From NCBI GenBank assembly GCA_026874595.1, contig CM049307.1, positions 51,209,370-51,273,369 on the forward strand: a DNA stretch of 64,000 nucleotides, in the 5' to 3' direction. Source of the stretch: Sipunculus nudus (Eukaryota > Annelida > Sipuncula > Golfingiida > Sipunculidae). This document shows positions 9,989-60,540 of this stretch, piece by piece; positions within the stretch are counted from its first letter, which is position 1; each line of letters opens with the position of its first letter. The notes under the pieces are model-generated. The model searched no databases. It saw only the letters and a program-made list of their open reading frames with translations, and was not told the origin of the DNA. The translations under genes were made by a program, and so were the position numbers.

Positions 9989-10136
9989 TTCATATATGAC
10001 AAAAGTAATTATGTGTATATATATATTAAAAGAGATAAAATATATTGTAGAAATGCCAGGAAGGGGTTTAATGATAACCACGACACGCATGCCTATTACA
10101 CCGAGGCAAGAAGCAAATTTCCTTTTTTTCTCAATT
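9989..10136 (+). repeat. Left copy of a 148/149-bp direct repeat flanking the LINE (target site duplication)
   Basis: From TTCATATATGAC to CTTTTTTTCTCAATT this matches 15652-15800 base for base except for one extra C in the right copy. Immediately inside the left copy lies T9, which is the A tail of the minus-strand element. The position of the two copies and the tail make a target site duplication the best explanation. Confidence 0.85.
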
Positions 10137-10390
10137 TTTTTTTTTAATGACCTTTATAGCAATATACTCTGCCTTTGACAAAGCCATAACCACTCCGACA
10201 GATAGAGGGGATGGAATGAATACATTCATTTTTATCTGTCAGCACAATAACATTTAAGAATATAATGAAAAATAAATAAACATTCAATATTAACATACAG
10301 ATAAAATACTATCTTTAATTTTTATAAATCTATCAATGAAAATTTGATTCAAGTAAGGGTATTTTAAATATTTCTGAATATATACATGTT

Positions 10391-13300
10391 TCATAATATC
10401 TTGCGATTTTGTCGTATTTTACTCTCTGATAGGCTAATTTCATTATATTTACAATGCATATTGTACTTAAAAATGGCATACGTAGTTACTGATATTATGA
10501 AATTGTTCATTTTTTCAAAATTACCATCCAGTGCGTATTTATGACCAATTACGAGCGTTTCCCAGTTTATCTGGATATGAAGTATTTTCATAATATTTTC
10601 CCATATCTCCCTCAATAATTTACATTCATACAGCATATGTTCAGCATTTTCATTTACATTACAAAATTTACAAAGATAGGAAATATTTGAGTTCCATTTG
10701 GACATTTTGGTACCTGTTGGAATAATGCCATGTAATAATTTGAAATTAAATTCTGATAGTTTTTTCGTTGGCATGTTTTTAATTTTACACTGATAGACTT
10801 TTGTCCAACTTATTAATTCTTTTTTAAATTTTTCCTGCAAAATAATTTGATGTTTGGGAGAAGACATATTTCTTCTTACTAATTCATTGTAAAAGAATTT
10901 TGATTTCTTCTTATATATATTAAAATTATGTTTACCAAGCGTGTATGTGTGTTCTAGATAAACCGATTTCTTTATGAATTGTTCTTTTGGAAATAGAGAA
11001 AAAGTCTTTTTAACGGCATTTTTAACCTGTATATATTCCGATATCCAATTGTGTTTAATTTTTAATTTCTTTAAAAGGTTGCTGACTGATATAAAAGTGC
11101 CATCATTGTTTAGAACATCTCGAATATAAATTATATTTTCTTCAACCCAGGCTTTAAAATATAAGCATTTATTATTGATCATAAATTCAGTGTTACCCCA
11201 TAATGGTTGTTTTAAAATATCTTCTGGTGAAGTAATCTCTCTTTTAACCTTACATTTATTAAAAGCTAATATCACTTCTCTATAAAATTGGGGTATATGT
11301 TTCAATATGCAAAACTGCTTTATTGATACACAGTTTGTGTTAAATACCCAGTCTGTATGGAGCCCACAGCTGTGTAAATAATATTTAAAGATATGTTTCC
11401 ATTTATTTTCTTCATAAAGTATTCTTGGTACCCATGCAGCTTTAAATGAAAGTAACCAACTATTAATATCGATCATTTTAAGACCGCCTTCCTCTATATC
11501 TCTTATTAAAACTGACCTTTTAATTTTTTCTGTTTTATTCCAAATATAGTTATAAATAACTTTGTTTATTCTTTTTTCGAATCCGTCCGGAATTGGTAGT
11601 ACCGAAGCTTGTAATGCTATTTTGGATAAAAGTATTGTCTTAACAATTAATATTTTTCCAATTAAACTTAGATTCCTCAACTTCCAAATGTTTATGTTAT
11701 TCTCTATTTTATCAATTTTGTCTTCCCAGTTTAGTTTTTCTATACATTTCTCATCATATCCAAACCAAATTCCTAAGCATTTCACTGGCTGTTTTGTCCA
11801 TTTTACTCCTATTGGATCTTTATGCCTCTTATTATTTCCCAGATCTAAAACGGTAGTTTTTTCCATATTTAGTTTTAAACCAGCTAGGTTTCCAAATTCA
11901 TAAATTTCCTTAAAGGCAGTTGAAACTGATTTATCATTTCTCAGAGTCAAAGTAGTATCATCTGCATATTGGCTAAGTTTTATTTCTTTACTGCCAAAAA
12001 TAAAGCCGTTAATATTATCATTTGTTCGTATTTTTTGTGCCAATATTTCAACTGAAATAATAAAAAGTAATGCAGATACTGGACAGCCCTGTCGTATACC
12101 TCTTTTCATTACATTTTTTGAAGATAACCATCCGTTATTTTTTGTAGTAAAAAGTGGGTTATTGTAAATAGTTTTAATCCAGTTGATAAAGTTCTGACCA
12201 AAATTAAATTTTTTAAAAGTTTCAAACATAAAATTCCATTCTAAGCTATCAAAAGCCTTTGTAAAATCGAGAAAAATTAACCCCCCTTCTTTATTTTATT
12301 TCTTAGCAAATTCAAATATGTCCGTAATAAGACGTAAATTATTTCCGATGTATCTACCTTTAATATATCCGGTCTGATCTGGGTCAATTATTTTTGGTAA
12401 AATATTTTGCAATCTATTTGCTAATACTTGTGCTAATATTTTATAATCAGTGTTACAGAGGCTTATAGGTCTATAATTATGTAAATTATATTTGTCTCCT
12501 TTCTTAAATAATATTGATATTACAGCTGTACGCATGGTAGAACATAATTTATTGTGACGATACGATTCTATAAAAGCATTATATAGAAACTCTTTTAGGT
12601 CATCCCAAAAAGTCACGTAGAATTCAATAGGGATGCCATCTAATCCTGGGGACTTGTTTTTCTTCATTTGAGTTACAGCAATTTTAATTTCATCCATTGT
12701 CATTTCTGCATCACATATATCTTTATCTTCATCACTTAAAACATTTAAAGATTTTATATTATTTAAATATTTCTGTATCTCTTTCACACATGGATTGTGT
12801 GATGTATATAAGTTTTTGTAATAATTATTTATATGATTTAGTATTCCTTCATCATCTTCTATTATATTATTGTTTTCTCTGATTTTATAAATAGTGTTAT
12901 CTGACTGGTTTTTATTCTCCAGCTTGAAAAAGTATTTCGTACTCTTTTCCCCTTGTTCAATCCAATTAGCTCTACTACGTATTTGAGCACCTTTTGTTAT
13001 ATTATCAAATATTTCATTTTTTTCTATTTCAAGTAAATGCTTTTCTTCTTTTAATCTTTCTATATCCTTAGCTATTGAATTTAAACTAATAAGCTGTGAA
13101 ATTTGTTTAATCCTTTTGTCTATCATAGCTAATCTACTATTTTTTTCTTTTCTTTTCGATTTAGAGTAGTTAATACTTGCTTCTTTTATGTTAATTTTTA
13201 TCATTTCCCAAGCTAGCCTCGCAGAATTGTGTTTATAACGTGTGTAACTAGAGGCAATACAGTCTTTCATCAGCCCAATAAAAATTGGATCATTAAATAG

Positions 13301-14107
13301 GCTGACGTTTAGTTTCCAATATCCCGGCCCTCTAATGCTTACTTTAAAATCCAGACATATCTTTATAGCTTTGTGATCTGACAGCCGATGTTCTTTTTGC
13401 TCTGACAGTACGTATTCACAGTCATAATTTAAGCAGTTCCATAGTTCAGAATTAGAGATAAAGAAATAGTCAAGTCTACTGCTTACATTCCTTTCTGACC
13501 ATGTAAATCGGTTATTTAACCTGCCATAACAGCTCCATATATCAGTTAGCTTTAAAGTATTTAACATATTTTTCAATAGTATTCTACTTTGGTCTGCCAT
13601 ATGTGACATCGTGCTCCTATCATCATCTTGCAGACAACAATTAAAATCACCTCCCATAATGATACATCTTAAAGAATCACTTTTTTCCATTAACCATTTC
13701 TCTAAGTCCTCAAAGAAAAGTTTCCGTTCCCCTTCTTTGTTCGGTGCATAAACACATACTAAGCATAATTTTTTACCTTTGTATTCCGTATTCAACAGTA
13801 TTTTTCTACCATTTTTACAGCAATGAATATTTAAAATTTTTATATTTATTTTATCTGATAATAGTATTGCAACACCTCTGCTATGTGGTGACGATGCATG
13901 ACTATGAAATATTTTACCTTTCCATGAACTGTTAATTATATTCGATGATACTATAGTGCAATAGGTTTCTTGTAAAAAAGTAATATGAACATTTCTATAT
14001 GTTAACCATGTATATAATTTCTTCCTTTTATCATAATTATTAAGACCTCTTATATTTAATGAACATATATTTAATTGTCTATTCAAATCTGTCATGTGGT
14101 TTTCCAT
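10391..14107 (-). pseudogene. LINE ORF2: endonuclease-reverse transcriptase, one in-frame stop
   Basis: From ATG at 14107 to the stop at 10391 a single frame of 1,238 codons is open except for one TAA at 12296-12298 (codon 604). The APE endonuclease is complete: SLNIRG (N18), LQET (E47), VYAPN (Y120), GGDFN (D154, N156), RLDY (D213), SDHK (D244, H245). RT motifs follow: NKSPGLDGIP, NYRPISL, DQTGYIKGRYIG, then the stop, then FLDFTKAFDSLEW (codons 612-624, motif A), RGIRQGCPVSALLF (motif B) and QYADDTTL (catalytic YADD, 714-717). The C-terminus has CKFCNVNENAEHMLYEC (about 1146-1162), the CCHC finger typical of L1/Tx1 ORF2. The stop would leave an endonuclease with a truncated RT, so this copy is probably inactive in cis. 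No frameshift is present. Confidence 0.92.
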
Positions 14108-14153
14108 CGTCTTTCGTATTTATATCCTTTATTTTTTTTTTTTTTTTACTTTG

Positions 14154-15482
14154 TTAATAATATTCTCCATCACTTTCTTCAAAAACACGATCTTCGACGA
14201 CACCTCTTTGTTCAGATTGTGGGCTAAAGTCATATCTGCGAGATTTCAGTGAAACTCTTAAGCTTGTATGTTTTTGCTGATTTGGTGACTGTTCAGATAG
14301 TTTTCGTTTCGGTGTTCCCATGCCTTGAAAAACCTGGTTGGACTCTTGGTCTTGTACTGAGGCTATATTGCTAGTTGCTTTTTCTCTGTCATGATTTTCC
14401 GCACTATAAAAGGATCTTATTTTCTCAAGTGTGGCACCATATAAGTTCCTACCAGGCCATGCATCCACCTTGGTGACTCTGGAGAGAAATTTGGACAGCC
14501 CTGTTCCCCACTGTTTATCTTGAACTGTGAGGGCGATCGGTGCTGTACCTGATTTCATGAGAGCTTCTTTGAATTCAGGGATCTGTTCTGCTTTCTCTAA
14601 CAGGATATTTTCCAAAATTTCAATTTCATGTCTGTCCACAGATTCATCAGAGTGCAAGATCTGGCCAATTCTCTTGGCAACTCCTGCATGTTTTGCGTTT
14701 TCAATTTCATTGGCCAACGCATCTTGGTCCAATTCATATGCGCATCTATACTGAAACGCATGTTCAGCGCTTTTAAAAGTTTTCCCGTACATTTCAAAAG
14801 AACAAGGGAAGGAGTTGGAGAGAATATCATCATGGCCAGACACAATTTCCATTGATTGATCAGGTATGTAATGCTCACAATATTTGCTACCTGGTTTGTG
14901 ACCTTTTTTGTGACATACTATACAGGTCAGGTCCTTGAACTGATCATTATGAAAAAATCTGCACTGAAATGGTCCAATTTGTCCATTTCGTGGTAGTGGG
15001 TTTGCCAAAGGCGATTTCACAAAAACAAATCTGTTTCCATTTTTGTAATGTGTCAGGAGTCCTTCTTTTGTCCTTTCATATTGATATTTTATTTCAGAAC
15101 GTAGCTCAAGCTTATATTCTGACTGTAAGTGTTCAACAATTGATTGATTGTCAAATGAGAGGGGGACATCTGCAATTGTGACTTTGATGGGTGCTGGGAA
15201 ATTGTCTGAATTTCTTGCACTATAAGGGTTTGTGTCGGAAAGTTGTACAAACTTATTCCGTAGAGACAGCCCCTCTGCCAAAAGTTTTATTCTTGCATCA
15301 ATTGATTTCACATATATTCTCCACAGATTTTTTATTTTTTGTGCACCATCAATATTGTCCGAGCCAACAACCTGAGCTGCAGCAGAACAAACTTCATAAG
15401 GTCTCATAGAGTTTTTAATGTTTGTATTGGAAAGCACAGTGTCATTTTTAAAGAACACGGGCAACACAGAGTCGTGTTCCAT
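14154..15482 (-). CDS. LINE ORF1 protein with zinc knuckle and NADAR (YbiA-like) domain
   Basis: An intact 442-residue frame. Residues about 95-180 resemble the RNA-binding region preceding the knuckle in Tx1-type ORF1 proteins. A zinc knuckle CIVCHKKGHKPGSKYC lies at 187-202 (CX2CX4HX6C, a longer last spacing than the usual X4). Residues about 217-358 match the NADAR family in order: LSNSFPCSFEMYGKTFKSAEHAF (217-243; SAEHAFQ is the family signature), AGVAKRIG (266-273), the helix EILENILLEKAEQIPEFKEAL, TAPIALTVQDKQWGTG (W325) and WPGRNLYGATLEKIR (342-356). A polar tail with basic and acidic stretches follows. NADAR enzymes hydrolyse N-glycosidic bonds, including ADP-ribose attached to guanine. 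Presumed role: RNP formation with the element RNA, plus a glycosidase of unknown substrate. ORF2 starts 46 nt downstream. Domain call is confident; activity is inferred. Confidence 0.88.
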   Translation of the reverse strand: MEHDSVLPVFFKNDTVLSNTNIKNSMRPYEVCSAAAQVVGSDNIDGAQKIKNLWRIYVKSIDARIKLLAEGLSLRNKFVQLSDTNPYSARNSDNFPAPIKVTIADVPLSFDNQSIVEHLQSEYKLELRSEIKYQYERTKEGLLTHYKNGNRFVFVKSPLANPLPRNGQIGPFQCRFFHNDQFKDLTCIVCHKKGHKPGSKYCEHYIPDQSMEIVSGHDDILSNSFPCSFEMYGKTFKSAEHAFQYRCAYELDQDALANEIENAKHAGVAKRIGQILHSDESVDRHEIEILENILLEKAEQIPEFKEALMKSGTAPIALTVQDKQWGTGLSKFLSRVTKVDAWPGRNLYGATLEKIRSFYSAENHDREKATSNIASVQDQESNQVFQGMGTPKRKLSEQSPNQQKHTSLRVSLKSRRYDFSPQSEQRGVVEDRVFEESDGEYY

Positions 15483-15651
15483 TCTGACAATGCTATCGTG
15501 TATTCAGCGCTTCGGTGAACAGGGTACCTGAACACGCGCCACACAAATCTGTGCCCTAACCGCAGGGCTTTCACTGAATGGTTCACTGAGCAGACAATTA
15601 CAGGATCCAATAATACAATTCAATAATATTACTGTCAGTTTTACAAAGAAT
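15483..15651 (-). promoter_or_regulatory. 5' leader / putative internal promoter of the LINE
   Basis: The 169 bp between the right-hand target duplication and the ORF1 ATG are GC-richer than the surroundings and would have to hold the internal promoter of a full-length LINE. I see no strong TATA or initiator consensus. The element may be slightly 5'-truncated; comparison with other copies would tell. Confidence 0.4.
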
Positions 15652-15800
15652 TTCATATATGACAAAAGTAATTATGTGTATATATATATTAAAAGAGATA
15701 AAATATATTGTAGAAATGCCAGGAAGGGGTTTAATGATAACCACGACACGCATGCCTATTACACCGAGGCAAGAAGCAAATTTCCTTTTTTTCCTCAATT
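15652..15800 (+). repeat. Right copy of the 148/149-bp direct repeat flanking the LINE
   Basis: Identical to 9989-10136 apart from one additional C after the T7 run. It adjoins the 5' end of the minus-strand LINE. Taken with the A tail at the other end, it marks the insertion boundaries. Confidence 0.85.
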
Positions 15801-37395: not shown

Positions 37396-38460
37396 CACGG
37401 TCACACTAAATCGTACGACTGTTTCAGGAAGCTGCACGATCAGTCTCCACAAATTTGTCCCGAATCTGAAATGGTCGTGAGTACTTGAAACTGTTGGTAG
37501 GTAATGGTACGACTGATGGCACGCTCAACCAGAACTAGTGACGGTCAGTCGCAAGATCAATCGTTCGACAAGTCGTTGCGATTAATATTGATCGTACGAC
37601 AAATCTTAGTGACCAGCGACCAATCGTACGACTTGTCGTAATGACCTGCGACTAGTCGTTCAACTGGTCGTGCCACCGATCGTATGGATATACATACCTG
37701 GGCCCAATATCAACCCTATTCATTCGTTCGCTAGATCCCGTACAGAACAGTGATATGATATATACGTTTTCTTCTTTGTCTTCGGTGCAGATGTGCAGCT
37801 GCGACAATAGCGCCAAGCTGTTGTTGTTGCTATAGATGAAGCCGAACCAGCATAAACCCTTGTCTACAGGGTGGCATCAACTGATCCATACACCCAGTTG
37901 GAAGTAAATACGACTGACTGAGCTTAGCCATAGATCCCAACAATTATATATGCCGAGCTGATAGCACGAAAAGTCGTATGGTAGTGCCACATGTCGTGAG
38001 AGATCTTGGCAAGTCGCAATTCTGATTACAAGGTCGTACGAACAGTGGTGCCACCAATCTCGAGGTGGCACGAGCAGTGGCACGACCAATCGTGAAACAA
38101 GTTGTTGCACGACGATGCACGACTGGTCGTGCGATGACCAAAGACTGGTGGTATAACCTTCTTGCGAGCTCCTACGACCTCAAAATTTACAAATCAGTCG
38201 CAAGTGGATTATGAACATGTTCAAAAACTACCTACGACCGATTTTTCACCCAGTGATCGGCCACGATCTCCTCAATCGGTCGCACGTTCTTGTTACGATT
38301 GTCCGGCGATTTCTCAAATTTTCAGTCGTGGACAGGTCTTTACCTGGTCGTATCTCTAGTTTGACCGTCACTTCCCTCTCTCTTACGCCAATGATAAATT
38401 AAAGAAAGCTCATGAGAATCTTAGATTACGCTAAAAAATTGTCTACGAGTGTGACCGTGA
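37396..38460. mobile_element. MITE with CACGGTCACACT ends and TCGTACGAC palindromic words
   Basis: The left end CACGGTCACACT and right end AGTGTGACCGTG are exact inverted repeats. Between them, two dense fields (about 37400-37690 and 37960-38380) hold tens of variants of TCGTACGAC, GTCGTGC and CGACCAATCG. A central 270 bp (37690-37960) lacks them. No transposase. Confidence 0.7.
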
Positions 38461-38559
38461 CGATAACGGCAATCTAACCCGATGAAAAACGGGTAGAAGA
38501 TTTGTTTACATTACACCCTTGCCAAAGAAATTATTAATGGGTCTCTTCGAGGCGTCCGT

Positions 38560-38940
38560 CTTTGAGCGCGAAGAAAAAGACGATAAATCTGAATGCAGTG
38601 TGTGGAAACTGCCTTGACAAAGGCCATATCAGACATGAATGTATCAAACCAATTAAATGCAAGGCTTAAATGAAATGCTGCCATAAAACCAGTGACGCTG
38701 AATGTGATCTGGAGGTGGTATCGGATAGTCAGACCATGATTGCATCTCCTTGTCAACAGACATCGCAGATAAAGAAAGAAAACCTCATACAAGGCCTGAT
38801 TTACCTTACAATAGCGCGCCAATCAGCCGTCGCCATCCAATTAAGGAAAACACGAAAATCAAAGCAAGACGACCGCGCTCGTGTTCCACCACGCGCTCTT
38901 GTAAGAGAACAACAGAAGACATCACAAGTTTTGAAATAAA
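38560..38940 (+). pseudogene. LINE ORF1 remnant with two zinc knuckles
   Basis: Starting near 38601 the frame reads CGNCLDKGHIRHEC (a canonical CX2CX4HX4C knuckle), then, past one TAA, MKCCHKTSDAEC, a second knuckle-like motif. A basic, polar tail follows to about 38940 in a shifted frame. This twin-knuckle arrangement is the usual gag-like C-terminus of L1/Tx1-type ORF1. It precedes the endonuclease remnant at 38980 on the same strand. Confidence 0.6.
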
Positions 38941-38979
38941 CGAACTTTTCTGCCGGATTCTTACTCAACTTAGCAAGTC

Positions 38980-41087
38980 TGAATTGTCACGGACTGCAGT
39001 CCAAATTAAGAAGACATGCAATCATTAATAGATTAAATTCGTGTAAGGTCGATATTGCATGTTTGCAAGAGATATATGCCATGACAAATTGAACTAACTG
39101 AAACGAACGAATTGAAATGAAAAATGTTGCATAAACAGGACAGTAAACATAATAATGGTCTAGTATTTTCGGTTAGCAAAGAGGTGGTAGCAATGATTGA
39201 CGATTAACACGAGTAGAAAAATCTAATGGAAGAATACTGAGTATTTCATTTAAGGCAACTGAAAAACTTAACAACATTTTCAACGTGTATGTCCCGAGCG
39301 TTAGCGCCGACAAACTACAGTTATGGGTACGCTTGTTTCACAGCAATCAAGTACAGACTACCTAGCATTACTTTTTGTTTTTACTCTACGTCAGATAATT
39401 CTTAAGACAGTGTAACCGGTAACGACCATGGTAAAACAGAAGAACGAATTATTTAACGAATTAATTAATGATCTCGTATTGAATGACACTTAGCGTCTTT
39501 TAAACGGACGAGAAAAAGCATACACCTTGTCAAGAACAAATCCCTTTATCGCAAGAAGAAACGATTACAATTGTGTTAAAGGCAAACTACTGAACATGGT
39601 TAAAAGTAGCGATATAGAACAATATCCATGTACAGACCACAAAGCGGTTTAAATTAAATTTTCACTGAATGAAAGGACACGAGGACCCTCCTACTGGAAG
39701 TTTAAAAACTCTCTACATAGAGATGAAAAATATGTAAACAACTAAAACGACTTTATAATAGATTTAACAAAAAAAAATAATTTGTTTTAAAATTACGCAC
39801 AGCTCCGATGGGAATTTTATATAATAAAAATGAAAGAGTTTATTATTGGATATTGTAAAAATAAAACTACGAAAGGAAAAAAATAAACAAAAGAGGCTTC
39901 TGATTACCTATTTAACCTTGAAAACAGCTGTTAAATGATCTCCAAAATAAAATACTACAAACAGAGATTACTCAAGCGAGACAGGAGTTGGCCATTTACT
40001 ACATGCAAGAAGCAAGAAGTGCTCAAAAGCTATAAAAGCTATAATATTATGGAAAGAAGACGGCGAAAATAATAACTCATTGTTAAGAAAAAGTACCTGC
40101 CTCAAGTAACTTTATTAAGTGATTAATAGAAAAAAATGGGAATTTAATTACCAATCAGTCTGACATATTACACGCTCAATTCAATTTTATAGTCACTTTT
40201 ATAAGGCTTCAAACTCTCCAGATTCCCCATATACCTTGGAGGCTTTCACCACGGACATCAGTATACACAGTTAAGGCTAACAAACGTAAAATAAATAAAT
40301 TATACAGCACTACGTTAAATTAAAAACGACTCAGGTCCTGGCCTCGACAGCCTCACCACAGAATTTTATGCCTTTGGTAATGCAGTCTTCGAAAGCGGGA
40401 AATTATCGTTATCGCAGAGAAAAGGGATCATTAATCTTTTACTTAAGGAAAAGGGCCTGCCGACAGTCGATCTAAGTAACTAGCGAACAGTCAATATCAC
40501 AAATATAGACTATAAGCCAAAGCTCTGGCACCCTGACTGCAGAAGTTTTTCTATCACATGGTGGCGCCTGATCAGGAAGGCTTTATCAAGGGCCGTGATA
40601 TCTCATTAATAATAAGACAATTTGACGATATTTTTAATTTCACTAAGGATAATAAAATAATCGCCTGATTTTGCAAAGGCTTTCGACACGATTAAACATT
40701 AGAATGGCATTTGCATGTTTCGGATTTGGTCCTGGCTTCAAGCATTGGGTAAATGTTTTGTTCACAGAAAGTGAAAATTGTACACAATATAACGGATAGA
40801 TTACACAGACGTTTCCCAACCAGAGAGCAGTGTGACAAGGGTGCCCCCCCCCCCCTCCTGGCCTTCGTCAAAGGTGTTGAGTTACTCGCCTGAAAGCTTA
40901 AACAAAATCAAGAAATAAGGATTAAAGCTATCAGATCAAAATTTTCAATAAGCAAACTCAAAATTGCTTTATACGCTGATGATATTACATTATTCATGAA
41001 AGATGAAAAAGATATTCATAAAAGCCTTGATATATTAAAGATATTTTCAAAAGTTCAGGGTTTAACCATAATATGAATTAAACAAGG
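38980..41087 (+). pseudogene. L1/Tx1-like LINE ORF2 remnant, 5' part (endonuclease and RT)
   Basis: Heavily decayed, but motifs remain in order: LNCHGLQSKLRRHAIINRL, ACLQEIYA, GRILSISFKATEKLNNIFNV, CTDHKAV (the SDH motif) near 39640, RGPSYWKF, then RT motifs DSGPGLDSLTTEFYAFG near 40335, RKGIINLLLKEKG, APDQEGFIKGRDI, FAKAFDT near 40680 and ALYADDITLFMKDEKDIHK near 40970. Many stops and frameshifts interrupt it. The frame runs into NKT at about 41087, where unrelated repeat DNA begins; the same ORF2 resumes at about 42963. Confidence 0.75.
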
Positions 41088-56262: not shown

Positions 56263-56885
56263 CGGCTCATCAACTCCGATTGGACAGAGTTAATAGTAAA
56301 TGAAAAATCTTGACACAAAGTGATTGTATTCATGGTCAAATTAAATAAAAACTTTGCATGTACAAATGTTTAAATTGTTTGTTAAACGATGATAGAGGAG
56401 TCGACCTTACCTCAATATATTGATCTAGCCCTAAAAGCTATCCCTGTCATTTCGCATATTTTTTTTTTAAATATTATTTTTCAACATAAATATATATATT
56501 TGTTTTTAATATCTAAATATCTAAACTAAGAGCATGCTTAAAACGGTTGAGCCAAACATTTTCATATTTGGCTTGATTATTTCTTTAATGTTAGCAGACT
56601 GCCTCTCGCAAAGCGCCGTTCGGTTATTGCTTACACAGTTTATGTGCATGCATACTAGTATTTTGCAAATCGAAAACATCAATTAAATGCAAGAAAACAA
56701 AGAAAATCTCTGTGCTTAACAGTCCAGAAAGTAGTAAGACGTTTGCTAACCACACAGTTTTAGCTAGAGTGACCAGTTTATTACAAATTAGAGTCCGGGG
56801 TGAAGTGTTGTATTATTTGAACTTTAATCTCGCTTTAATCTCTCACTTTAACCGTCTTTCATTTTACAATTACATAGTAAATTAC

Positions 56886-59800
56886 ATGTCTTTCAATTTT
56901 CAACTCCACAGCTTTAATGTGAGAGGTCTGCAAGATAAATTAAAAAGAAATAAGGTTTTTGATTGGTTACAACAACTAAAACAAAGTATTATATTTTTAC
57001 AAGAAACACAAAGCAAACTACAGCATGAACAGATTTGGATGCGGGAATGGGGATCAGATATTATGTTTTTTCATGGCACAGGAAATAGTAAGGGAGTTGC
57101 AGTATTGTTCTCAAAGGATATAAATATAACAGTAATGAAATCTACTATCGACAAAGATGGTCGATTTTTATTATCAGAAGTCAAAATTGATGAAACAAAC
57201 TTTACACTAATAAATGCATATTTTCCAACGAAAGATCATCAGTCACAAAAGTTAACCTTTATTGAACAATTAAATGACCTCCTTTTCCCTCACAGAGGAG
57301 ACAACCTTGTAGTTTGAGGTAATTTCAATATAACTCTCCAGCCAGATATTGACAAAATTGGAGGGCAAAAAGAAAAAAAATAGGTCCTCCGAGTAGGCAA
57401 CTTGTCAAATTAATTAAACAATATCTATTAAACACGTATGGCGAACACGCAATCCACACACATGGGCTTACATAAGAACGCAAGAAACACCTCGAATTAT
57501 GTCAAGAATTATTTATGGTTAATGTCAGAAACACTTGTACCAAACGTAACGTCAGCTGATATTAAACCAAAAATTTTCTCTAACCATTGTATAATTTCAG
57601 CTTCTCTGACAGGTGACCTCTTTGTCCGCAGACGACGAGGACACCGGAAATTTAATAATGACCTTTTAGCAGATGATTCGTATACAGATACAACAAAACA
57701 GCTTATACATGAGTTGATCGATAAATATAAAGTTTATGAAAATAAGCATATTGTATGGGACACCATTAAGTGTGAATTAAGAGGACAAACAATACAATAC
57801 TCCAAAAGGAGGGCCAGAAAAAAGAGAGAAGTAGAAAAAAAGCTGACCACTGAATTAACTTTCTCAAACATAATAATTAATGAAAACCCGTTTGACGAGG
57901 AAACAAAACGAAAAATGGACCAAGTGACAACAAAATTAAATGAATTGTATAATTTTTCTACAAGGGGTTCTATAATTAGAAGTAAACAAAGATGGTATGA
58001 ATTTGGTGAAAAGAATACAAATACTTTATGTCTCTAGAAGAAATTACAAAAATAAATGTATAACATGTATTAAAAAGGGGCAAGAAGATATAACGAACCC
58101 AAAAGTAATATTAGAGGAATGTAAACTGTTTTATGAAAACTTGTATACAGCAAACAAAAAAATAGCAGATTTAACAAATGGGGAGTTTTTAAATAGTGAA
58201 ATCTTTGGACTGAATGAACAAGAAAAAGTAGCCATGGAAAAACCAATTACACTATACGAAGCTGTCGCAGCTTTAAAAGAATTTAAAAAAGGTAAATGTC
58301 CAGGGATGGATTGATTTACAGTCGAATTTTATATATACTTCTGGGATGAAATTGGCGAAATTTTCCATGAGCAACTGTTGTATTCTTTAGATAAAGGATT
58401 TCTCTCAATAGAACAAAGAAGAGGAATAATATCTCATACCAAAAATAGGAAAAGATCGAAAACTTATAGGAAACTGGAGACCGATATTGCTTCTACCTAT
58501 TGATTATAAAATATTAGCAAAAATAATTGCAAATCGTTTAAAAAAGATGCTGCCAAATCTTATTCATACTGATCAGACTGGTTTTATACCAGGGCGTTAC
58601 ATTGGAGAAAATAATTCAAAATATTATTAACCATACTATCAATAAAAATATATGTAATATTATGCTCCTGCTCGATTATGAGAAAGCTTTTGACAGATTA
58701 GAATGGCCATTCATTTGGAAAACGCTTGAGAAATTTAACTTTGGAAAGAAAATGATATCACGGGTCAAAACTTTATATTTAATGCCTCCAGTACAATACA
58801 AAATAATGGTTACTTTTCTTCTTTCTTCACGATAGAACGAGGCGTCCGTCAGGGCTGTCCTCTATCACCTTATTTATTTATCCTAAGTAGCTAGCCATAT
58901 TCGTCAAAACAATAGAATAAAAGGAATAAATATAATAGGGAAAGACATAAAGATATCACAGCTCGCCGATGACATAACGTGCTCTGTTGCTGATACCGAA
59001 TCTGATAAACATGTTCTCGCCACCATTAACAGTTTTCATGAAGTTTCAGGTTTAAAGATTAATATGAATAAAACTGAAGCCCGATGGTAAGTAAGGAACA
59101 AGGGCTGGAAAGGAAGATGGAGATTTGGCAGTCAGATGGACATCCGGGAACTTTAAAACTTTAGGTATAACATTGTATCAAACTGAAGAAGCTACAGCAG
59201 CTAATTATATAAAAATAAATATAGAAAAAATTCGGAATCGATTTCAGTCATGGAAAAGGAGAAACTTGACACTAAAAGGAAGAGTACTTATCACAAAAAC
59301 ACTTGGTATAACAAAATTACTTTACTGTATGTCAACGTTTCATATGCCCAAACCGTATCTTACGCAAATACAACATCTATTAAACGACTTAATATGGATG
59401 GGTAAAAAAAGTAAAAATTAAACATACAGTTATGATTGAACAAACGTGCGAAGGTGGATTAAAAGTGACTGATATAGATATTCTGAATAAATCGATAAAA
59501 ATGGCCTGGCTTTCCCGTCTCATTAAAGACCAGGACTCAGTATTGTCATATTTAGTAAGAACTTACTTTAACAAAACTGTATTATCATTACATGACATTT
59601 AAACATGCCGCTCTTTCAAACCAACATCATGCAATCTGTCGCCAATGTATAGAGATATATTGGCATTTCTTTAAGATTTTTATAGCAAAAGCAAACCCCT
59701 AACTGTTCAAGATGTTATTAACGAGAACATATGGTACAAAGATTTAATACATCTTAGTTATAAAAGGCAGACTTTCTTTTATAAAAATTGGTATAAAGCC

Positions 59801-60540
59801 GATATCCGTAAAATCGCCCACTTAATAGACAAAAAAGGTAATTTCTTAACAATGATTCAATCAATGACAAAGTACAGAATAAAAACAAATTTTATCGAAT
59901 ATCACAGACTCATGAAACACATTACATGAAGTTGGAAATCTACTTTATCAAAAATAGTGAAGAAACTGACTACAGTAACTGTGATAGAGAATTAAGATTT
60001 AGAATATCATCTTTATATTATTATAATATTTTGAGCTGTAAAAGTAAAGTTTTCTACAATACCCTAATAAAAAGTAAAGCTGGAAAATCAACAGCACAGG
60101 TCTATTGGTCACACAACTATGGCATTACGGAGATTGATTTTAATTCTAGTATTAGCTTGTCACTCACCTTCAGTAACGAATCAATCATTTTTCAATCAGA
60201 AATTTTGTTGACCATACAGGACATTATATTCGGATTAAAAGGAAATAGAAGCCCCCAAACATTATTAAATGTTAATTACCTCATTATACAAGCCAAATAT
60301 TATATCCATGTACAGAAATGTGCCGAAAAAAGAATAGATTTCACATCATTCTTGGAATATGTAAGAAATGAGCTGGAAATGAAAAATTTAACTCTAGGAA
60401 ACAAAGGAAAAGAATCAGTATTTACAGAAGTTGGAGTCACTTACATCAACATATTAAACTCTCTATACAGGATTAACTATTTGCAACTTAATCATACATT
60501 TGATACTGTAAAAAAAATTATTGTATTTCATTCATGTTGA
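56886..60540 (+). pseudogene. L1/Tx1-like LINE ORF2 remnant (endonuclease, RT, C-terminus)
   Basis: From ATG at 56886: SFNVRGLQDKLKRNK, FLQETQS, NSKGVAVLFSKD, LINAYFPTKDH, then an in-frame TGA at 57315 just before GNFN. Further frames give RGHRKF, STRGSIIRSKQRWYEFGEKN (57960-58010), KGKCPGMD with a TGA at 58313 in place of a glycine-type codon, TDQTGFIPGRYIGE, LLDYEKAFDRLEW (motif A, 58665), RGVRQGCPLSPYLFILS (58840), QLADDITC (catalytic box, 58960), then RNLTLKGRVLITK, LLNDLIWMGKK and a 204-codon C-terminal frame to 60540. At least five frameshifts or stops. It is more recent than the remnants at 4 and 39 kb and distinct from the 10-15 kb element, sharing only family motifs. Confidence 0.85.

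Follow-up and report, generated by a model that had tools for sequence, protein, structure and literature searches.

The window analysed here, a 64,000-nucleotide stretch of Sipunculus nudus DNA, contains a LINE whose first open reading frame was described in an earlier note as an RNA-binding-type ORF1 fused to a NADAR domain, intact in a young copy and in an arrangement not familiar as a standard one. The locus raises the question of whether this fusion is an accident of one copy or something that LINEs have kept, and whether the domain still works as an enzyme.

ORF1 is read from the minus strand; the plus-strand reading of the same interval was ruled out by many stops. Its frame of 442 codons is open, and its domain order is RRM-RRM-zinc knuckle-NADAR-tail, with low model confidence in the tail (Table 1). 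The NADAR part gave a significant match to PF08719 (64.3 bits versus a curated Pfam cut-off of 35.1), and the structure model matched the YbiA/NADAR fold; the knuckle was confirmed in the sequence where the earlier note had placed it, and its three Cys and one His do not vary across 14 aligned ORF1s. When the single ORF1 was compared with PDB sequences by phmmer, two weak matches were obtained, while a profile search of the same sequences recovered 8bau and 2b3w. By definition, a Type I ORF1 has one or more RRMs directly followed by a CCHC knuckle (PMC4120745), and the window ORF1 has this order. ORF2, interrupted by a single in-frame stop at codon 604, contains the endonuclease and reverse transcriptase that mark a LINE. 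Thus, on Pfam, fold, and ORF2 profiles, the LINE is one with two ORFs, and a NADAR is indeed fused to its RNA-binding-type ORF1. The last seven residues of the window ORF1 (14157-14177, minus strand) read ESDGEYY, and this ending returns in family B, as ESDSEYY in L025 (see below), despite a tail that is otherwise divergent and modelled with low confidence.

Table 1. Features of the window and of related loci; positions refer to the window or to the locus named.
Feature	Locus	Position	Strand	Basis or remark
LINE copy, 5521 bp	window	10131..15651	-	slightly 5'-truncated versus sister copies
Inferred target-site duplication, 5' side	window	15652..15793	.	100% identical to 9989-10130
Inferred target-site duplication, 3' side	window	9989..10130	.	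100% identical to 15652-15793
ORF1, 442 aa	window	14154..15482	-	open frame; Pfam; structure model
RRM-like fold 1, residues 6-88	window	15219..15467	-	
RRM-like fold 2, residues 97-179	window	14946..15194	-	
Zinc knuckle C-x2-C-x4-H-x6-C, residues 187-202	window	14877..14924	-	sequence
NADAR, Pfam residues 220-357; fold match 208-365	window	14412..14825	-	Pfam and model
Codon 318, position of catalytic E125	window	14529..14531	-	Leu in window copy
ORF2, first part: endonuclease and start of reverse transcriptase, to in-frame stop	window	12296..14107	-	PF03372, PF00078
ORF2, continuation in same frame: reverse transcriptase and zf-RVT	window	10391..12295	-	PF00078, PF13966 on 10391-12229
Decayed LINE	window	38366-41070	+	ORF1 remnant 38366-38750; endonuclease start near 38970; reverse transcriptase to 41070
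Interrupted LINE	window	56712-59896	+	endonuclease and reverse transcriptase stretches, 23-57% identical by piece to ORF2
NADAR frame of second LINE type	L029	886-1935	+	
TRIM-like frame	L043, C5	4530-6539	-	RING, B-box, NADAR (Pfam)
TRIM-like frame	L047, C5	76-2004	+	RING, B-box, NADAR (Pfam)
TRIM-like frame	L044, C5			90% DNA identity to L043
Shorter relative, 541-codon frame	L051, C5		-	
Shorter, more diverged relative	L050, C3	705-2132	-	only NADAR above Pfam cut-off

Perfect direct repeats of 142 nt bound the LINE copy on both sides, and we read them as the target-site duplication of a recent insertion; a flanking duplication that is still perfect agrees with the young age proposed earlier. 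The 3' end of the element is A-rich. Six sister copies begin ca. 166 bp further 5', so part of the 5' UTR is missing from the window copy. Over 12 sister copies, which with the window copy make up family A, ORF1 divergence from the window copy was 0.5-3.4%. Flanks of 12-17 nt are common to some copies. The same flanking repeat, 16 or 17 nt long, is found at five family A copies at C16:50.3-51.5 Mb (L010, L012, L013, L016, and L022), which are probably one insertion multiplied via segmental duplication. Because these five loci share one flank, family A was counted as nine insertions, including the window; the C16 group entered the selection count as L016, and L010, L012, L013, and L022 were dropped. 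The flank comparison covered the eight of 12 family A copies with both ends found, and the remaining copies were taken as independent, given their location on other chromosomes or at a large distance. At 142 nt, the duplication of the window copy far exceeds the 16-17 nt seen in the C16 group.

A genome search with PF08719 returned at least 141 matches, with 150 of 204 candidates scored, and 49 places besides the window were sorted by tblastn and frame reading. LINEs with an RRM-type ORF1 account for 24 of the 49 (family A, 12; B, five; C, five; C2, two). The RRM half is present in 23 of these 24 places, the exception being L040, and ORF2 lies alongside in 23, the exception being L049, whose retrieved stretch ends at ORF1. 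The other places comprise a second LINE type (two; L029 and L030), TRIM-like genes (five), NADARs joined to a GDSL/SGNH part (eight by sequence, with Pfam run on L032), NADARs with a GDSL fragment in front (three; L021, L023, and L024), and stand-alone or other NADARs (seven). The same domain order was found in ten database proteins (P0001, P0002, P0004-P0008, and P0010-P0012); the frame of a further relative, P0003, breaks where the NADAR begins. A one-off capture is ruled out by the 24 further LINE places, together with the selection results given below, and the ten proteins speak the same way. What stands of the concern voiced in the earlier note is that NADAR-less relatives exist: P0009 contains the RRM-knuckle part without NADAR, and the decayed LINE in the window has an ORF1 of the same RRM-knuckle type, without NADAR match, with ca. 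260 bp from knuckle to endonuclease and with P0009 as its nearest relative (45% over 86 aa). Because both lack the domain, NADAR is a feature of some lineages of this ORF1 rather than of all. A scan of viral contigs gave 12 pattern matches, none of which was confirmed.

The ligand-binding and catalytic residues of the Phytophthora NADAR, as given in PMC11543638, are E43, K50, R79, W89, R93, E125, D130, and W133. According to the same source, the E. coli C7 NADAR cannot do without its K50 equivalent, for which Arg substitutes in vitro but not in rescue, and the E125 equivalent is required, being Asp in the E. coli C7 NADAR and His in phage NADARs; one phage NADAR with His at 125 was tested and was active (PMC11543638, PMC11125620). 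Sites were mapped onto 8bau, where nine out of nine positions, including K75, fell on the published residues with a constant offset of two. Two stand-alone NADARs of the same genome, L001 and L002, read E K R R W R E/D D W across the nine positions, and the method thus recovers complete sites where they are present. In the window ORF1, E43 (the ribose contact; Glu240), K75 (Lys), D130 (Asp), and W133 (Trp) are kept. K50 is Cys247, neither Lys nor the Arg that serves in vitro; R79 is Gln; R93 is Glu; E125 is Leu318, rather than Glu or its Asp and His substitutes; and W89 is absent, with no Trp between residues 54 and 325. That the window copy encodes a working enzyme is therefore not supported, five of the residues concerned being replaced or absent.

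Fourteen LINE families were compared (A, B, C, C2, and the ten database proteins): all of them retain E43 and D130, 12 retain W133 (it is lost in B and C2), and ten retain W89. Position 50 is Lys in seven families and Arg in two, with His in one B copy. At position 125, Glu is found in two families (P0006 and P0008) and His in seven (P0001, P0002, P0005, P0007, P0010, P0012, and the older state of A); Leu (B), Asn (C), Tyr (C2), Gln (P0004), and Ala (P0011) occur once each. Since His stands at 125 in phage NADARs, one of which is active, the LINE NADARs with His may be active as well. Most of the site is still present in P0008 and P0012. In the 31-row tree, A, B, P0001, and P0002, which are the families lacking W89, come out as one well-supported group (98/99). 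Its members have a residue other than Lys at position 50, a replacement at both R79 (Lys in P0001) and R93, and His or Leu at 125. The W89 column is alignment-sensitive and is shifted in the alignment of the 31-row tree; the mapping onto 8bau was used instead for this residue, and P0011 and P0012 were read separately. The changes at R79 and R93 are weaker evidence than those at K50, W89, and E125, because both positions vary in other, non-LINE NADARs: position 79 is also Gln in L003 and in NADARs of the GDSL type, the rest of whose site is nearly complete, the GDSL type has Lys at 93, as does YbiA, and Ala and Glu stand at 93 in L005 (which also has Met at 43) and L036, respectively.

Within family A, codon 318 is Leu in the window, L009, L011, L015, and L020 and His in L014, L017, L028, and the C16 group. 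This is the sole shared non-synonymous change of the NADAR within the family, and it falls on the catalytic position. Leu is the derived state, because His is also found in P0001 and most outgroups, and elements bearing it have transposed, as five places carry it.

Selection was assessed by dN/dS according to Nei-Gojobori, in which a saturated dS only bounds omega. Over the nine insertions of family A, private changes in ORF1 numbered 77 non-synonymous (four of them stops) to 24 synonymous (omega, 1.09), and shared changes two to seven (omega, 0.10; Fisher p 0.0019 for shared versus private). Private changes thus look neutral and shared ones do not. A contrary count comes from the tail, where private changes were 22 non-synonymous to two synonymous. 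The NADAR alone has two shared changes in family A (one of each kind), too few for dN/dS.

In family B, the NADAR of L025 and L027 differs with an omega of 0.18 at a dS of 0.12. Between the two B subfamilies (five pairs, dS saturated), NADAR dN was 0.24-0.27, that of the RRM half a little lower (0.19-0.23), and that of the tail far higher (0.58-0.62; omega, 0.35-0.38). Omega of the NADAR was 0.70-0.78 in the close B pairs L018/L019 and L018/L026, as expected for changes after insertion, and a contrary figure comes from the tail of L025/L027 (omega, 2.09 at a dS of 0.04). We conclude that the NADAR is under purifying selection in family B. Close pairs in C and C2 gave NADAR omegas of 0.38-0.49 from few changes. 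Between A and B, with dS saturated, NADAR dN (0.56-0.57) exceeded that of the RRM half (0.36-0.37), i.e., the NADAR changes faster. The earlier concern that dN/dS over the NADAR might lie near 1 is therefore not borne out at depth, where omega is well below 1, while the close B pairs come nearer to it and the NADAR alone is underpowered in family A.

Two trees bear on the origin of the domain. In a 46-row tree, the NADARs of RRM-type LINEs and of TRIM-like genes stood together (80/83). In a 31-row tree, to which P0011 and P0012 were added, the RRM-type LINE NADARs did not stand together; the central split, itself weak (71/91), left P0006, P0008, P0011, and TRIM on the stand-alone side, and L024, a long row, was placed next to P0012 (95/79). 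Redundant, broken, or near-duplicate rows were left out by name (13 from the 46-row tree and 30 from the 31-row tree), and L051 is in neither. Stand-alone, GDSL, YbiA, Phytophthora, and second-LINE NADARs formed a group of nine with no RRM-type LINE row (97/92). Neither a clade of RRM-type LINEs with TRIM (p-AU 0.30) nor one without TRIM (p-AU 0.26) was rejected. A clade of RRM-type LINEs, TRIM, and the second LINE type (L029) was rejected at p-AU 0.012, in what is a weaker test, as the grouping was chosen post hoc from the 46-row tree. The NADAR of the second LINE type pairs with the stand-alone L005 of the same genome (99/94, 31-row tree). Because it groups there, set apart, NADAR uptake by LINEs of this genome apparently occurred at least twice.

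In the second LINE type, L029 and L030 have a NADAR frame without RRM matches, followed by endonuclease and reverse transcriptase remnants; the two lie on different chromosomes, share 91% identity over 1.9 kb, and have Asn at the E43 position. The GDSL/SGNH-NADAR places (L031-L035, L037, L038, and L042) are repeated frames, and queries with LINE ORF2 gave no match near them. L033 and L034, which are on separate chromosomes, agree at 99.7% over 3.1 kb, and upstream in L033 lies a frame that has a PHD finger and weakly matches a C48 peptidase. The places with a GDSL fragment in front are likewise repeated frames, in which the weak fragment (below cut-off in L024) precedes a diverged NADAR, with repeats downstream.

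In the TRIM-like genes, the NADAR is preceded by a zinc knuckle of the LINE form, and GHEPGD-x2-C is found in both L043 and P0011. A query with the knuckle-NADAR part of L043 gave only two out of 122 candidates below 1e-8, both of them LINE ORF1s; the matches to P0011 and P0012 are 39% over 97% and 35% over 96%, respectively. As LINE ORF1s have the knuckle even without NADAR, we infer that the knuckle-NADAR unit moved from LINE to TRIM, a direction on which the tree does not decide. In three pairs, the TRIM knuckle-NADAR part has an omega of 0.11-0.19, indicative of purifying selection. L044, L051, and L043 lie ca. 11 kb apart on C5, and the dS between L043 and L044 is 0.49 in the NADAR half and 0.11 in the front part, as after gene conversion or exchange. 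We tentatively suggest, as a possibility rather than an expectation, that the host took the LINE knuckle-NADAR onto a TRIM-type E3 ligase, which may recognise the LINE ribonucleoprotein or its ADP-ribosylated RNA for destruction. If so, retrotransposon and host would be in a conflict linked to ADP-ribose, with the LINE NADAR on one side and TRIM-NADAR on the other, and the changes in the LINE site would be an escape from the host; with the TRIM fusions in the same genome, a host response could be tested.

Our preferred reading, to which we give a probability of roughly 0.5, is that a lineage of LINEs with Type I ORF1 has long kept a NADAR on its RNA-coating protein, and that in the window family the NADAR, its ADP-ribose clamp eroded, either binds a ligand or acts enzymatically on a different substrate. 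This reading takes as established the architecture, its occurrence in four families here and in ten database proteins, the selection in family B, and the separateness from the NADAR of the second LINE type. The NADAR would ride on the LINE ribonucleoprotein, and its ancestor may have cleared RNA, cDNA, or proteins of the element of ADP-ribose (or of a comparable N-linked ribosyl group) that host ADP-ribosyltransferases would have placed there, as PMC9503650 proposes for the NADARs of animal RNA viruses. In the window family, the ribose-side pocket (E43 and D130) would persist while the pyrophosphate grip and the catalytic acid are lost, and throughout its subclade (families A and B, P0001, and P0002) the domain would most likely be a binding module of the ribonucleoprotein, or act on a smaller ribosyl substrate, rather than be a classic de-ADP-ribosylase. 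The graded loss of the clamp across LINE lineages offers a natural series for asking whether nucleic-acid ADP-ribosylation restrains retrotransposons.

The retained E43, D130, and W133 would also suit a NADAR that still de-ADP-ribosylates nucleic acid, with His or another residue in place of E125. His does stand there in four family A insertions and in the six database proteins listed above, as in the active phage enzyme (PMC11543638, PMC11125620), but the window protein has Cys at a position that, in the E. coli C7 NADAR, is essential and in vitro replaceable only by Arg (PMC11543638), W89 and R93 are lost too, and the elements with Leu at 125 in five places have transposed. We consider such an activity unlikely. 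If, instead, the NADAR were purely structural or RNA-binding, a fold that aids ORF1p multimerisation or RNA binding without function of a ribosyl pocket, erosion of the clamp would fit, and W133 is gone as well in families B and C2. The pocket-lining E43 and D130 are nevertheless kept in all 14 LINE families while other ligand residues vary, which makes this role somewhat doubtful, although these two residues may themselves be structural. Least probable by far is a passenger, a host NADAR gene fused recently by chance and now decaying: the NADAR-less P0009 and decayed window LINE would fit it, but the fusion is common to highly diverged families, between which dS is saturated and dN lower, and the stand-alone NADARs group without any RRM-type LINE NADAR.

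Although the earlier note did not know the fusion as a standard arrangement, it is known as a kind: according to one sentence of PMC12477816, a NADAR of the YbiA family appears to be present in the ORF1s of several Pacific oyster families of Tx1 LINEs, and a role in processing RNA intermediates is suggested there. The name Tx1 is borrowed from these oyster elements. The Crassostrea gigas ORF1s, likened to ours by description, likewise join a LINE ORF1 with a YbiA-type NADAR, and what is added here beyond that sentence is the RRM pair, the erosion of the site, the selection, and the other fusions. In searches of the PMC open library, we found neither an eroded ADP-ribose clamp nor the selection result described before, and likewise no second LINE type or TRIM-NADAR genes. 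As described in PMC12477816, Ectocarpus Gypsy elements have also recruited a NADAR, but they are LTR elements and the domain lies at the Pol N-terminus. Type IV LINE ORF1s similarly contain an enzyme domain, an SGNH esterase (PMC3905857, PMC4120745), which is of another fold and is reported to be hydrolytically active and lipid-binding (PMC3905857). NADAR enzymes strip ADP-ribose from nucleic acid, and PMC11125620 describes their role in animals as largely unclear. With the P. nicotianae NADAR, DarT1-linked NADARs, and YbiA (PMC11543638, PMC11125620), the window domain has the fold, E43, D130, and W133 in common; unlike these hydrolases, as they are described there, it lacks K50, R79, W89, R93, and E125. 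The nematode SNA-3, again compared by description, is likewise a NADAR-containing animal protein of RNA processing, but the account in PMC9303266 gives it three NADARs, makes it an essential host gene, and mentions no RRM. Finally, the NADARs of animal RNA viruses, including annelid and bivalve picornaviruses, likewise belong to RNA-based parasites of invertebrates, in which, going by their description in PMC9503650, the domain is part of a polyprotein.
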